DNA of 64,000 nucleotides from NCBI RefSeq assembly GCF_015694705.1, contig NZ_JADQDR010000006.1, forward strand, positions 124,001 to 188,000, given 5' to 3'. Under the pieces are notes generated by a model. It was not told the DNA's origin. It saw only the letters and a program-made list of their open reading frames with translations, and searched no databases. The translations under genes were made by a program, and so were the position numbers. The DNA comes from Pontibacter rufus (GTDB taxonomy: Bacteria > Bacteroidota > Bacteroidia > Cytophagales > Hymenobacteraceae). Positions 10,093 through 50,385 of this stretch are shown one piece after another. Positions within the stretch are counted from its first letter, which is position 1. Every line of letters starts with the position of its first letter.

Positions 10093-10623
10093 ATGAGAAG
10101 ATACAAAGTTGTAATACTTCTGTTGCTGCTTTCCTGCCAGCCTGAAACTAAACATATTGCTTCAGATGGTTTAGAAGAAGGTAATACAGAGGAACACAAG
10201 TTTTATGACTTTGATTTTGAGTTCACGAGGTACTTCTCCCCAGTAGGTGTAACAGAAAAGTTTGTTCTCAGAAACTCAGGATTGAACCCAAATGAGGCTT
10301 TTAAGGAAAATCATTTATACTATATCAGGTACGCCAGCCAAGAAAAGATAGAAGAGCCTCCTAAGCCCGACACGGCAGTAGTTGAATTGGATAAAGCGCA
10401 CTTAGATTCTCTTTACTCTATTGCTTCAAGTTACATGAAGTTAAAGCACTCAGCAAATGTTTCGCCTAATGAGATACCGCTGCCACCTGTAGCTGACTCT
10501 GAATGGGTATACGCAGAGATTACGCTTGATTTAGGCTTTAGAGGAGACAAGCATTCTGTAACTACTGCTCAGTTCAGCGCATTGTATCAGTACTTGACAA
10601 GAATGAAGAGCAAAAGCCGCTAA
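10093..10623 (+). CDS. Hypothetical lipoprotein
   Basis: A 176-residue protein whose N-terminus MRRYKVVILLLLLSCQPE is a lipoprotein signal with the lipobox LLSC and the acylated cysteine at residue 15. The mature part is acidic and hydrophilic with several aromatic residues (FYDFDFEFTRYF) and a C-terminal alpha/beta-looking segment. It is more AT-rich than the flanking genes. No family is recognised. It follows the MBL-fold gene by 64 bases on the same strand. Confidence 0.65.
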   Translation: MRRYKVVILLLLLSCQPETKHIASDGLEEGNTEEHKFYDFDFEFTRYFSPVGVTEKFVLRNSGLNPNEAFKENHLYYIRYASQEKIEEPPKPDTAVVELDKAHLDSLYSIASSYMKLKHSANVSPNEIPLPPVADSEWVYAEITLDLGFRGDKHSVTTAQFSALYQYLTRMKSKSR

Positions 10624-10929
10624 TACGACACATAAGCAAAGCTTCGGCTGATGGCTCGCGCACTTTATGTACAAACCGCTACAAGTATAAAAAGATTTCG
10701 CGTATTTCAGTACTATACTACAAACCCCTCCCCTGCTTTATTTAAACAAATTTCATATAAGCGCTTCTTTCACCAAACTCCACTTTAATGCTTACCTTTG
10801 TGAGATTTTGCGGGGCTGTGGCATTATTGGCGCAACTTACCTGTTGCATGCACAGCAATCCCGCCGCCGCGGAGGCATTTTCAGGCCAACCGCAGCTTAA
10901 ACATAGTATAAGCAGAGTTTCATAACTAA
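10624..10929. other. Intergenic stretch with a -7 promoter box for the ABC exporter
   Basis: No convincing reading frame exists here. TACCTTTG at 10793-10800 matches the Bacteroidota -7 consensus, 130 bases ahead of the ABC exporter, though no TTG lies at the ideal -33 distance. The remainder shows no terminator or repeat I can support. Confidence 0.45.
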
Positions 10930-47253: not shown

Positions 47254-47318
47254 CTAGCTCAGTTCCGCATAACCATCTATATTGGTAATATAGCAGGAAT
47301 ACTTCCTGGTAGCTGGTA

Positions 47319-47325
47319 GTTAGGC
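47319..47325 (+). other. Cassette 1 left junction (R'-type box GTTAGGC)
   Basis: GTTAGGC fits the integron core site GTTRRRY. The bases after the G (TTAGGC) are the first of cassette 1 and are exactly complementary to the R'' box GCCTAAC of the site at its far end (47759-47765). About 40 bases upstream GCATAAC pairs with it at six of seven positions, so a degenerate attI- or attC-like site may be present. Confidence 0.55.
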
Positions 47326-47337
47326 AACATTGTAAAT

Positions 47338-47721
47338 ATGAAAATTATTACTGAAGCTATAAATCAAGAACCATCTCACTCTGTGACTAAGAAGGATATT
47401 GAGACTGTAATTAAATATGTTCCTAAGGACTGGATTGGCGTGGCTCATGTATTTTTGATTGCAGAACAAAAATTTGAAAATTCTAATTGGGACAGGCCAG
47501 TAGTACAAAACCAAACTACTTTCAGGATTCTTTCACGGGGCTTAGAAAAGAAGATAGTGATAAAAGAGTTATTGATTGAGCTGGCTGTAACCCCTGCAAG
47601 GATTTACCCGATGAAATCTCACAAACTGAACAAAGAGCAGAGAAGAAAATTAGAAGAAATGATTCAACCATATTACAAGCGGATATCAGCGGAACTTCAA
47701 CTGGATGAGCAAGGGATATAA
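47338..47721 (+). CDS. Cassette 1 gene: hypothetical protein
   Basis: A 127-residue soluble protein, basic at both ends (SHSVTKKDIETVIKYVPKDW, then LNKEQRRKLEEMI). It contains a strand-rich centre (VAHVFLIAEQKFENS) but no catalytic motif or known family I can recognise. It begins 18 bases after the cassette junction, is AT-rich and lacks an upstream Shine-Dalgarno. It is the first of six same-strand genes in the proposed cassette array. Confidence 0.6.
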   Translation: MKIITEAINQEPSHSVTKKDIETVIKYVPKDWIGVAHVFLIAEQKFENSNWDRPVVQNQTTFRILSRGLEKKIVIKELLIELAVTPARIYPMKSHKLNKEQRRKLEEMIQPYYKRISAELQLDEQGI

Positions 47722-47758
47722 ATCAAAAGGGAATAAAGTACTAGTAAAAAACAACGCT

Positions 47759-47825
47759 GCCTAACAACAGCTAAGCGCCAGCATCGGCCGACGGCCTCCG
47801 CCGCCGCTTAGCCTAACCGTTGGCG
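47759..47825 (+). other. attC-like site of cassette 1
   Basis: R'' is GCCTAAC (47759-47765), L'' GCTAAGCG (47770-47777) pairs perfectly with L' CGCTTAGC (47805-47812), and the R' position reads GTTGGCG (47819-47825). The intervening 27 bases are GC-rich and self-complementary. The R'' box matches the first bases of its own cassette, as expected when the cassette circularises. Confidence 0.7.
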
Positions 47826-47865
47826 TGCATAGGTAATTAATAGAACTCGAAATGAAAGTATAATT

Positions 47866-48060
47866 ATGTCAAAAAGTTATCATGTAACCCGCAAGGATTT
47901 AAAAGGACTTTCGAAAAGGGAGCTTGATGAAATGGCAGAAGATAAAGACTCATTGCTTAATGAATATGCTGAGAAGAGTAGTGTTAAGCGTGAAGTCAAG
48001 AAAAAACGAAAAGAAGAAAAAGATAAGAACAACGATACGCCAACAAACCCTATAAGTTAG
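47866..48060 (+). CDS. Cassette 2 gene: small charged protein
   Basis: A 64-residue, extremely charged protein (KGLSKRELDEMAEDKDSLL in the middle, then KREVKKKRKEEKDK near the end). It resembles a disordered or nucleic-acid-associated peptide. The 3' end of the gene overlaps the R'' box CGCCAAC of the following site, a typical arrangement for cassette genes. No family is recognised. Confidence 0.55.
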   Translation: MSKSYHVTRKDLKGLSKRELDEMAEDKDSLLNEYAEKSSVKREVKKKRKEEKDKNNDTPTNPIS

Positions 48061-48091
48061 CTACGCCACCTTATTGCCCAGCACGTTATGA
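48038..48091 (+). other. attC-like site of cassette 2
   Basis: R'' CGCCAAC (48038-48044) is the exact complement of GTTGGCG that begins cassette 2. L'' CTATAAG and L' CTTATTG pair at six of seven positions. The R' position GTTATGA (48085-48091) begins cassette 3. Confidence 0.65.
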
Positions 48092-48103
48092 GTAAAAGAA
48101 GAT

Positions 48104-48658
48104 ATGAAAACAGCCTTTACCATCTTCACATTATTAGTTTGCTTTACTGCATTTGCCCAACAACCACAAGAAGTAAAAAATGGGGAGTTGATTCCATGGA
48201 GCCAAAGTAATAAGTTGAAGTGGAGTGATTTTCGAGGAGAAGTTAATGGCTCATCTACAGCAGCAACTTGCGCTGTATGGAATTCTTCATTCAAGTACAC
48301 AGATGGTGTACTTGAATGTGAGTGTGTTAATTTGTTTGATAGGTTTCAGTCGTGGACAACTGATACTACATCTACTCAATTATTAGAACATGAGCAATTA
48401 CATTTTGACATTAGCGAAGTCTTCTGTCGAAAAGTTAGAAAGGGAATTGTTGAGCTGCTGGCAACAGAAGATATTTCTGTTGCTGCATATGAAGCATTAG
48501 TGGATAGCTTGGGAAATGAAAGAGATTGTTACCAAGCCTTATTTGACAAGGAGACAGCTTACGGAGTATATGGAACAAAACAGCTTAAATGGAGAAAGAA
48601 AACAGATAGTGAGCTTGATAATCTTAATAGTTTCGCTAACACCACTATAAAAGAATAA
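48104..48658 (+). CDS. Cassette 3 gene: secreted DUF922-type zinc-protease-like protein
   Basis: A 184-residue protein with signal peptide MKTAFTIFTLLVCFTAFA (cleavage before QQPQ). The mature part shows LKWSDFRGEV, a DUF922-like start, and the metal-binding motif HEQLH in LLEHEQLHFDISE (around 108-112), as in DUF922 proteins, which are predicted secreted zinc proteases. Cysteines in CAVWNSS, CEC and CRKV suggest disulfides. It starts 18 bases after the cassette junction. Its function in a cassette context is unknown. Confidence 0.75.
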   Translation: MKTAFTIFTLLVCFTAFAQQPQEVKNGELIPWSQSNKLKWSDFRGEVNGSSTAATCAVWNSSFKYTDGVLECECVNLFDRFQSWTTDTTSTQLLEHEQLHFDISEVFCRKVRKGIVELLATEDISVAAYEALVDSLGNERDCYQALFDKETAYGVYGTKQLKWRKKTDSELDNLNSFANTTIKE

Positions 48659-48671
48659 TAAGAACTTTTGC

Positions 48672-48725
48672 TCATAACCACACCTATACGACCGCTACGC
48701 AGCCGCATAGTCAAGCATATGGGTA
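48672..48725 (+). other. attC-like site of cassette 3
   Basis: R'' TCATAAC (48672-48678) is the exact complement of GTTATGA that begins cassette 3. L'' CTATACG and L' CGCATAG pair at six of seven positions and are followed by TCAAG. The R' position is degenerate, ATGGGTA (48719-48725). Confidence 0.6.
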
Positions 48726-48754
48726 TCAAATCATAATTTATAAAATCAGCACAA

Positions 48755-49282
48755 ATGAAATTTCTTCTTAAGCTAAAGCACTGGCAACTTTTTCTCCTGA
48801 CGTGGGGACTTCCAATGTTGATAAACATCTTCACCTTCTCTCATCCTGAGTTAATGCTTCAAATGTTTCCAGTCATGATGGTTTTCTTTACCCTTGGAAC
48901 CTTAGGGTGGGTATGGGCGATAGCAACAGAGTTAAATCAAAAACTCCCATCAGATGTAAGGCTGAATTCTGGAAGGTTCAAAATCTACTTCTCCATTCCG
49001 ATATTATACATCCTGGGAATCACCATATACATAGCTTTTGTAACAAACGGTTCTGGAGATAGCTCAAATATGGCTGTGGCTGGAGTTGCTATAGTTGTTT
49101 TACACCTGCTTTCTATGGTTTTCATCTTTATGGGTTTACGATTTGCTGCAAAGACAATGAAAACAGTTGAATTAGGAAGGGTCGCAAAGTTCGGGGACTA
49201 TGCAGGTGAGTTTTTCTTAATATGGTTCTCCATTATTGGATATTGGGTGTTGCAGCCACGCATCAACAAGTTAGTAGACTAA
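48755..49282 (+). CDS. Cassette 4 gene: hypothetical membrane protein
   Basis: A 175-residue protein with five hydrophobic helices (LFLLTWGLPMLINIFTF, MFPVMMVFFTLGTLGWVWAI, IYFSIPILYILGITIYIAF, MAVAGVAIVVLHLLSMVFIFMG, EFFLIWFSIIGYWVL). Loops contain basic stretches (KTMKTVELGR). No catalytic motif or family is recognised. It starts about 35 bases after the degenerate junction. Confidence 0.65.
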   Translation: MKFLLKLKHWQLFLLTWGLPMLINIFTFSHPELMLQMFPVMMVFFTLGTLGWVWAIATELNQKLPSDVRLNSGRFKIYFSIPILYILGITIYIAFVTNGSGDSSNMAVAGVAIVVLHLLSMVFIFMGLRFAAKTMKTVELGRVAKFGDYAGEFFLIWFSIIGYWVLQPRINKLVD

Positions 49283-49297
49283 TCAGAGAAGCTCTCA

Positions 49298-49358
49298 TAC
49301 CAACCCAGTGCATGCTTAACCCTTAATGTGAGTCGGGCTTCCTCTATACCTGTCGGTT
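49298..49358 (+). other. Degenerate attC-like site of cassette 4
   Basis: R'' TACCAAC (49298-49304) complements the cassette-4 left edge at five of seven core positions, and the extension ATACC/GGTAT matches fully. The junction GTCGGTT (49352-49358) leads cassette 5. The L'' and L' arms are not clearly paired, so this site is weak. Confidence 0.4.
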
Positions 49359-49377
49359 CAACTTTAACAATGAAAAT

Positions 49378-49785
49378 ATGAAAAAATCAATTTTTACTAA
49401 CGTAGTCTTTTATTGGGCAATTGTTTCAATTCTTGGCGTGCTATTATTATGGAATTTATACTTGACAATTGCTCACTCAAGGCTTGCTGGTCTTTTACCA
49501 ATAAGCATTCAAGCAACTTTACTGGTGCTAATATTTAAAAGGCATGAATATGCAAAGAATGGAATAAAGATTTGGGCTATCATATTTTTAATCGCAAGTT
49601 CAGGATTGCAGCTTTTTGGACGTCTTCTTAAAGACTTATCTGATAGTTTTACGAATGTGGATTTACAACACTATTTAACAACAGGAATAACTATTATAGT
49701 TGGAATTCTAATCGTGAATTATACCAACAAAACTGTAGAAGTAGTAGAGATTATCAAAGAAGAAACTGAACCTAACCACAACTAA
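49378..49785 (+). CDS. Cassette 5 gene: hypothetical membrane protein
   Basis: A 135-residue protein with four hydrophobic helices (VVFYWAIVSILGVLLLW, LLPISIQATLLVLIF, IWAIIFLIASSGLQLFG, YLTTGITIIVGILIV) and a glutamate-rich tail (EVVEIIKEETEPNHN). Its last codons overlap the R'' box ACCTAAC and the L'' arm of the next site. AT-rich, no family recognised. Confidence 0.65.
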   Translation: MKKSIFTNVVFYWAIVSILGVLLLWNLYLTIAHSRLAGLLPISIQATLLVLIFKRHEYAKNGIKIWAIIFLIASSGLQLFGRLLKDLSDSFTNVDLQHYLTTGITIIVGILIVNYTNKTVEVVEIIKEETEPNHN

Positions 49786-49823
49786 ACATCAACTATGCCG
49801 CCGTTTAGTCAAGTCCATTAACC
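49770..49823 (+). other. attC-like site of cassette 5
   Basis: R'' is ACCTAAC (49770-49776, RYYYAAC). L'' ACTAAAC (49781-49787) pairs perfectly with L' GTTTAGT (49803-49809), followed by CAAG as in the cassette-3 site. R' is degenerate, ATTAACC (49817-49823). The extension GAACC matches GGTTC at the cassette-5 left edge. Confidence 0.6.
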
Positions 49824-49836
49824 ACAAAAGAAGAGT

Positions 49837-50385
49837 ATGAAGTTAACACTACCAATGATTGTAGTAGGCCTGCTGTGGTCCTTTACAGCTTATGGGCAGC
49901 ATAGTCTTACAGTGAAGGAAGTTAAATTTGACGGAATATTTGGGGCAGCAGTGAACACTTCTTCAAATGTGCAAACCATATATTGTCTTCTCGGTTTGGG
50001 CTATTTTTTAGCACCAGAATCGGATAATATAGATGTTATTATAGCTAAATGGATTGAAGACCATCCAAATGCAAGAATCATTCCGGTATATACTTTTGGC
50101 CCTATCGCAACAGATGATAAAAGTTCAACGATGACGTACTGCTGGGTAAGTGACAAAGAAGAAAATCTTAATATATGGTTAGTGAAGCAGGGGTGCGTGC
50201 ATGGACAGAATTTGCAGTATCCAACGAAAGAGATTAAGAAGCAAATGGGAATGGACCAGTTAGATAATAATAGCTACGAACGGGTTCATATCAATGATTC
50301 TGAATATCAGAAATTTATACAACTCGCCAAGGATGCTACGACTTACGCTTTTGAAAATAAACTTGGCATCTGGAAAGTAAAATAG
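49837..50385 (+). CDS. Cassette 6 gene: secreted, weakly nuclease-like protein
   Basis: A 182-residue protein with signal peptide MIVVGLLWSFTAYG (cleavage before QHSL). The C-terminus resembles the end of staphylococcal-nuclease-like domains (LNIWLVKQGCVHGQ, then ATTYAFENKLGIWK, matching the pattern LV-x-x-G and A-x3-GLW), but the catalytic arginines are not obvious, so activity is doubtful. It begins 19 bases after the preceding junction and is AT-rich. Confidence 0.55.
   Translation: MKLTLPMIVVGLLWSFTAYGQHSLTVKEVKFDGIFGAAVNTSSNVQTIYCLLGLGYFLAPESDNIDVIIAKWIEDHPNARIIPVYTFGPIATDDKSSTMTYCWVSDKEENLNIWLVKQGCVHGQNLQYPTKEIKKQMGMDQLDNNSYERVHINDSEYQKFIQLAKDATTYAFENKLGIWKVK

Follow-up and report, generated by a model that had tools for sequence, protein, structure and literature searches.

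Integrons usually carry the integrase gene intI transcribed away from the cassette array. Among the closest described systems is the sedentary chromosomal integron of Vibrio cholerae (integrase IntI4, PDB 2a3v), and the Bacteroidota arrays reported here share with it attC sites composed of R'', L'', L' and R' boxes with AAC/GTT ends and a crossover at GTT, an attI-like region beside the integrase gene, and tandem short genes of unknown function running in one direction. In contrast to that system, the Bacteroidota recombinase lacks the IntI patch, has N-terminal repeats and often a divergent partner gene, and is co-directional with the cassettes, i.e., recombinase and cassettes lie on one strand, unlike in the usual integron layout. 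XerA, XerC and XerD (PDB 4a8e, 5hxy and 1a0p) share the core and catalytic domains and likewise lack a patch; however, the Xer sequences used here have no N-terminal repeats and were not seen tied to attC arrays.

In the excerpts of the literature accessible to us, the IntI patch is described as unique to IntI and required for activity, and the accessible text of two published surveys (PMC2426708, PMC8352920) has integrases chosen by this patch. The accessible part of a large survey (PMC9024848) names one complete integron in Bacteroidetes proper, that of Salinibacter ruber. A search of titles and abstract beginnings in the open-access literature, a scope that leaves out preprints and most subscription journals, found no paper on patch-less integron recombinases or on Pontibacter or Flavobacteriaceae integrons.

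The window, i.e., the 64,000-nt stretch of Pontibacter rufus DNA subjected to our analysis, contains six short plus-strand genes (47338-50385), flanked by genes for an M13 peptidase and a polysaccharide deacetylase on the opposite strand. Sites between these genes were scored using R1, a two-stem covariance model built from 12 clear attC sites of this genome, with filters off. A simple box-and-stem scan of the window had proved too noisy, and the covariance model and later a chain test were used instead. The features of the array are as follows:

47290-47326, plus strand: attI-like remnant at the head of the array, ending in TAGTT, with the GTT at 47319-47321
47338-47721, plus strand: cassette 1 ORF, 127 aa, no Pfam family
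47756-47827, plus strand: attC site 1, intact, R1 score 55.7 bits (E 3.1e-12 over the window), a member of the R1 training set
47866-48060, plus strand: cassette 2 ORF, 64 aa, no Pfam family
48038-48093, plus strand: attC site 2, short, with GTT, R1 score 43.7 bits, a member of the R1 training set
48104-48658, plus strand: cassette 3 ORF, 184 aa, DUF922 at E 3.6e-5, below the cut-off
48672-48724, plus strand: attC site 3, decayed, without GTT, R1 score 4.1 bits (E 6), aligns to site 5
48755-49282, plus strand: cassette 4 ORF, 175 aa, 86% amino acid identity to a homologue in an array of another genome (G093, locus L045)
49296-49359, plus strand: attC site 4, decayed, R'' CATACCAAC and R' GTCGGTTC as read by eye, no R1 match in the window even with filters off
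49378-49785, plus strand: cassette 5 ORF, 135 aa, no Pfam family
49768-49825, plus strand: attC site 5, decayed, without GTT, R1 score 14.5 bits (E 0.012 in 4 kb, 0.18 over the window)
49837-50385, plus strand: cassette 6 ORF, 182 aa, no Pfam family

At E<=0.01, Pfam returned no family for five of the six array genes and only a weak DUF922 match for the third, and R1 found no attC downstream of the cassette 6 ORF. A lone attC match also lies far from the array, at 10615-10686 on the plus strand (33.8 bits, E 1.7e-6 over the window), overlapping the end of an ORF at 10093-10623.

The first-pass annotation had singled out sites 3 and 5 as homologous sequences that share the same words in the same order between unrelated genes. 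Site 3 reads AACCACACCTATAC..GCTACGCAGCCG..TAGTCAAG and site 5 reads AACCACAACTAAAC..ACTATGCCGCCG..TAGTCAAG. Their local alignment score of 43 was reached by none of 2,000 two-base-block shuffles, which bears out the homology and the order of the words; 2 of 2,000 random 75-nt windows of the 64 kb also reached this score, possibly by overlapping the sites themselves. The genes flanking the two sites have no known family in common, as that annotation had held. Since both sites lack GTT at the crossover, we regard them as weak, decayed members of the array, whereas sites 1 and 2 are clear.

A five-by-five comparison of cassette ends with cassette starts revealed that, for cassettes 1, 2, 3 and 5, the start that pairs best with the end is that of the cassette itself; an own-start complement at the cassette end is the signature of circle insertion. 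The end of cassette 4 does not pair best with its own start, as expected because that start is decayed; the R' of site 4 has its best pairing partner in the end of cassette 5. In L045, the junction matching cassette 4 keeps its GTT, which has been lost in the window. The attI-like remnant aligned to the attI regions of three loci (L009, L044 and L046) with scores reached by 0 of 500 shuffles in each case, while its alignments to L043 and L053 were not significant (72 and 149 of 500 shuffles, respectively).

Single-strand folding of window sites 1 to 5 was no better than that of shuffled sequences, so stem energy alone gives the sites, including sites 3, 4 and 5, no support as attC; the support comes from covariation over 150 aligned attC sites. 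In this alignment, which had been fitted to the R1 structure, the L stem is paired in 92.5% of cases, six of its seven pairs have changed on both sides, the covariation was reached by 0 of 500 shuffles, and the AAC/GTT pairs are present in 148-150 of the 150 sites. The folding result, together with the intergenic position of sites 3 and 5 and their inverted repeat, would also suit a conserved terminator, a small RNA or a REP-like repeat. We consider such an origin extremely improbable, since cassettes 1, 2, 3 and 5 each end in a box that matches the start of that cassette, mobile cassettes are delimited by related sites, and arrays elsewhere contain this site subtype. We therefore describe sites 3 and 5 as attC-type sites of an integron cassette array, in agreement with the initial proposal that they are cassette recombination sites and not ordinary spacers.

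A tblastn search of the window with the recombinase described below found no integrase (best E 3.7), and a decayed integrase within the window was rejected on the same value. Since sites 3 to 5 are decayed, the array begins in an attI-like sequence, and no integrase remnant is present, the window array is, judging by its sequence, a decaying cassette cluster without an integrase. With two clear attC sites close together and no integrase nearby, it falls under the CALINs, as these are given in the accessible part of PMC9024848. It differs from a CALIN in its attI-like remnant and in having relatives that are complete, with a recombinase that a search for the IntI patch would not detect. Hence, the idea that the cassettes were captured by the same integrase stands as far as the cassette reading goes, although the integrase itself is absent from the window and the recombinase linked to related arrays is not a canonical IntI.

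In this genome, R1 gave 90 matches at E<=10 and 68 at E<=0.001, training sites counted in. They stand in runs between short unrelated genes and cluster on contigs C19, C13, C7, C14, C1 and C21, with short groups elsewhere in the genome. Extending the search to 150 genomes of the family Hymenobacteraceae uncovered matches at E<=0.001 in 77 of them: all 50 Pontibacter genomes (that of the window counted), 26 genomes spread over three more genera, and a single genome of yet another genus, which had one match. Genus g4 had no R1 match and genus g5 had one. Locus L009 illustrates the arrangement, with short ORFs and attC sites between them forming tandem, mostly single-gene cassettes in one direction. 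The subtype of sites 3 and 5 is not confined to the same two genes, since AACCAC sites adjoin other genes elsewhere; AACCAC occurs in 11 of the 150 aligned sites, 10 of them at the AAC box, and contig C2 of this genome and G093 each contribute one such site. The search of Hymenobacteraceae genomes that had been suggested from the window alone therefore came out in favor of cassette sites.

No gene of this genome reached the cut-off of the IntI model TIGR02249. The best match is located where contig C19 ends, so that the gene is interrupted, and a run of attC-bearing cassettes stands behind it on the same strand. Its complete relatives are about 485 aa long. Relatives at E<=1e-45 were found in 42 of the 50 Pontibacter genomes; genera g2, g3 and g6 have them as well, and none from genus g4 is among the matches listed; the other eight Pontibacter genomes have attC sites but no close recombinase. 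Across 22 loci, 232 of 234 R1 matches lie on the recombinase strand, the exceptions being in L050 and L057; the upstream flanks covered here were short. For 80 named loci with flanks of up to 10 kb on each side, all 81 matches are downstream of the recombinase and 80 are on its strand. Draft contigs often stop inside or just behind the recombinase gene (L047, L048, L068, L095, L102, and C19 of this genome), as would happen if assembly broke off at repeated cassette sites. In addition, locus L010 on contig C2, beside a gyrB-like gene, contains a decayed recombinase copy with a stop (L010 11602-11900) and two attC sites on the strand of that copy (10305-10364 and 10752-10823).

The recombinase lacks the IntI patch. 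The patch region comprises 24 residues in the family profile versus 67 in IntI4, to which the profile aligns in two blocks, and archaeal XerA and XerC-like chains align to the profile throughout. Likewise, GKGxKDR and HxLRH delimit a span of 70-71 residues in 98 of 101 family loci (the other three missed the pattern), compared with 112 in IntI1. XerA and XerC-like chains were also the best fold matches, led by 4a8e (Z 21.6, rmsd 8.8, 253 residues aligned), and 2a3v had Z 18.5 and rmsd 3.8 over 256 residues.

In principle, these arrays could be CALINs of ordinary integrons that depend for their movement on a canonical IntI from elsewhere, with the adjacent patch-less recombinase a bystander. 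Their attC architecture is indeed canonical, CALINs are a known kind of element in the accessible text of PMC9024848, and a patch-bearing IntI above the cut-off is present in 2 of the 150 family genomes, both of genus g3 (0 of 50 in Pontibacter). Both genes look broken, however, since one has a stop and the other has YxLRH in place of HxLRH, and no credible R1 site was found near either in the 14-19 kb examined. Moreover, one recombinase family heads same-strand arrays across many genera, and a conserved attI-like region precedes the first cassette. We therefore judge a bystander role unlikely and continue with the patch-less recombinase as the one belonging to the arrays.

In 18 putative attI regions, which were anchored on TAGTT so that this word is constant by construction, ungapped identity drops from 0.56 over the 20 bases preceding GTT to 0.40 between +3 and +10 and 0.28 between +30 and +60. 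In Arenibacter arenosicollis, a 777 bp cassette is repeated at 100% identity with CGTT at both ends, one copy standing directly behind the recombinase, and a 454 bp cassette repeat in G014, also 100% identical, likewise ends at CGTT. A 1,111 bp cassette shared at 98.5% identity is located at attI in G049 and within the array, at attC, in P. mangrovi, and its identity begins at GTT on the left. Flaviramulus repeats a two-cassette block at 99.8% identity that extends to the end of the locus. Others of the 38 pairs listed (e.g., L067/L076 and L063/L083) are not counted as GTT-bounded.

The arrays are not restricted to chromosomes. Plasmid pls1 of Pontibacter kalidii (NZ_CP111080.1, L141) contains a complete recombinase, the partner gene and six attC matches; it is typed mobilizable, tra genes adjoin, and its annotation lists mostly the recombinase and hypothetical proteins. 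An IS110 transposase gene lies within this plasmid array.

With the aim of following the arrays beyond the family, we examined recombinase relatives of 37-55% identity in Flavobacteriaceae, Bacteroidales, Marinilabiliaceae and other Cytophagales. Since R1 was made for Pontibacter, two model-free tests were used on these distant loci. In Flaviramulus, Cesiribacter, Maribacter, Arundinibacter, Gillisia and others, self-comparison uncovered dispersed direct repeats downstream of the recombinase, and it showed no inverted repeats in the loci of the five named genera; we read the direct repeats as putative longer attC sites. Many other distant loci, often with little flanking DNA, gave no dispersed direct repeats by this comparison. 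The second test searches for chains in which the end of each cassette pairs with the start of that cassette and each site contains a stem. An earlier version without the stem condition was dropped, as it was symmetric under reverse complementation and often at shuffle level in distant loci. Of 58 loci having 2 kb or more of downstream sequence, 44 exceeded all ten shuffles and 35 had chains of at least four, while 14 did not beat their own shuffles; chains of four occurred in none of 36 upstream flanks. Chains of at least four were found in 13 of 27 distant loci (L087, L093, L097, L101, L103, L105, L106, L117, L123, L133, L135, L138 and L140), and the Prolixibacteraceae locus L137 had a chain of three. 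The same layout is accordingly seen in Flavobacteriaceae and in Cytophagales outside the family.

Ten genomes of genus g5 have a recombinase of 48-51% identity that is shorter, at about 370 aa (L143-L153). It is followed by an attI-like region ending in ATGTT and then by one or a few cassettes with long, different attC sites. An exact 9-mer of the own start recurs downstream in 9 of 10 loci, where chance would give about 1.5% each by arithmetic alone; the chain test was barely above shuffles. Two pairs of g5 loci (L149/L152 and L144/L145) have a near-identical attI followed by unrelated genes.

The N-terminal part of the recombinase is modeled as two copies of a strand-strand-helix-strand-strand-helix unit (mean pLDDT 82.5 for the whole protein and 84.4 for the N-terminal part alone), and by eye other lineages have one or three copies. 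HARP and XPB domains read DNA structure. The same repeat is found in HARP (PF07443) and in the XPB damage-recognition domain (2fz4), whereas here it is fused to a tyrosine recombinase and, in the Pontibacter proteins, the similarity is weak or unreported. The Pfam HARP cut-off of 25 was passed by 1 of 14 proteins scanned (Spirosoma L138, 31.1 bits), with sub-threshold matches in L125, L113 and L088 (E<=0.01) and in L060 and L117; no match was reported for the Pontibacter protein in the Pfam scan. When the N-terminal part was compared using VIA-align, XPB chains took ranks 1-6, the best with a Z of 6.3 (weak, under 8) and 2.1 A over 56 residues. A SMARCAL1 HARP chain was absent among the matches listed, which we do not count against the link to HARP, and Foldseek gave no match for the N-terminal part at E<=0.001.

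In a sample of 395 genomes of the phylum, 110 matched profile A4 at E<=1e-80. Among stretches picked by hand from this sample, 39 contain the recombinase and one contains a patch-bearing IntI. Of the loci with more than 2 kb downstream, those that have the N-terminal part exceeded shuffles in 10 of 18 cases, six of them with chains of at least five, and the other eight did not beat shuffles. The corresponding figure without the N-terminal part was 1 of 17, one of the 17 being a 226 aa fragment; four further loci with too little downstream DNA were left out of this comparison. The one locus is L209 (G319), which has a seven-link array without N-terminal repeats and is an exception to the association. 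Given 10 of 18 versus 1 of 17, the arrays go mainly with the N-terminally extended recombinase, with at least one exception.

The divergent partner is a small gene of about 125-130 aa with N-terminal cysteine pairs and a predicted zinc ribbon. A profile built from five proteins detected it in 77 of 183 loci, and it has no Pfam family. It was found in 19 of 20 loci of L041-L060 and 47 of 80 of L061-L140; the profile found none in the g5 loci L143-L153, and none was found in the loci without the N-terminal part (L203-L221), nearly all of which have upstream flanks too short for a verdict. In loci with a listed recombinase position, the partner stands close upstream on the opposite strand (e.g., 16780-17217 in L044). 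Long palindromic repeats that look operator-like by eye occur between the divergent genes in L041-L058, up to about 150 bp upstream of the recombinase. CTAA-N5-TTAG, given as the Hymenobacteraceae LexA motif in the accessible text of PMC8565304, was found within 600 bp of none of 21 integrase starts, L009 being incomplete and the start in L059 uncertain.

In a 50-row tree, the three patch-bearing IntI rows form one group (100/99), most Xer/XerA rows form another that is set apart (100/96), and 19 of 25 array-linked recombinases form a third (96/82), with relatives lacking the N-terminal part nearby. Descent of the recombinase from an IntI that lost its patch is weakly disfavored: forcing the IntI and array-linked rows into one clade gave an AU p of 0.027, from a thin sample with three IntI rows and long branches. 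The tree also bears on whether the housekeeping XerC/XerD pair moves the cassettes. Homologues of both are present, but the arrays stand behind a separate recombinase placed apart from Xer in the tree, and their sites have the form of attC-like hairpins, with AAC/GTT boxes and with stems that show compensating changes, so we deem movement by XerC/XerD very improbable.

Collectively, the sites with their compensating stem changes, the co-linearity of arrays and recombinase, the missing patch, the attI similarity and the GTT-ended duplicated or shared cassettes can be seen in the sequences themselves, and we read the arrays as an overlooked integron class of the Bacteroidota whose activity we infer. 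The recombinase lacks the IntI patch, and the class is therefore not filed as a canonical integron; by its sites, cassettes and breakpoints, it probably works like one. We are fairly confident that 47319-50385 of the window is a decaying, integrase-less array and the remains of this kind of integron with a patch-less recombinase, a kind that would be widespread in the Bacteroidota.

In its complete form, such an integron would consist of the divergent small zinc-ribbon gene (in many cases, not all), the recombinase, attI and tandem cassettes. The recombinase, of about 370-600 aa, would combine N-terminal HARP/XPB-DRD-like repeats with a core-binding domain and a patch-less catalytic domain. 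The putative attI ends in GTT just past the recombinase gene, and short-gene cassettes with attC sites would follow, all on the recombinase strand. The recombinase may cut at GTT and join a folded single-stranded attC to attI or to another attC, like IntI. Its N-terminal repeats may recognize the folded hairpin and stand in for the missing patch, and our guess is that the divergent gene would regulate or assist the recombinase. More tentatively, and with somewhat more doubt than belief, we suggest that these integrons may form a class of their own, in which a patch-less Xer-like recombinase gained tandem HARP/XPB-DRD-like readers of folded attC that replaced the patch, the same chemistry arose from different recombinase branches, and the zinc-ribbon protein is a new dedicated partner.

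If this is true, integrons are numerous in a phylum that is common in soil, sea and animals, some of these integrons carry more than 12 cassettes of unknown genes, and at least one sits on a plasmid typed mobilizable. It also becomes testable whether the patch is truly needed for the recombination of folded single-stranded DNA, or whether it may be replaced by another structure-reading domain.
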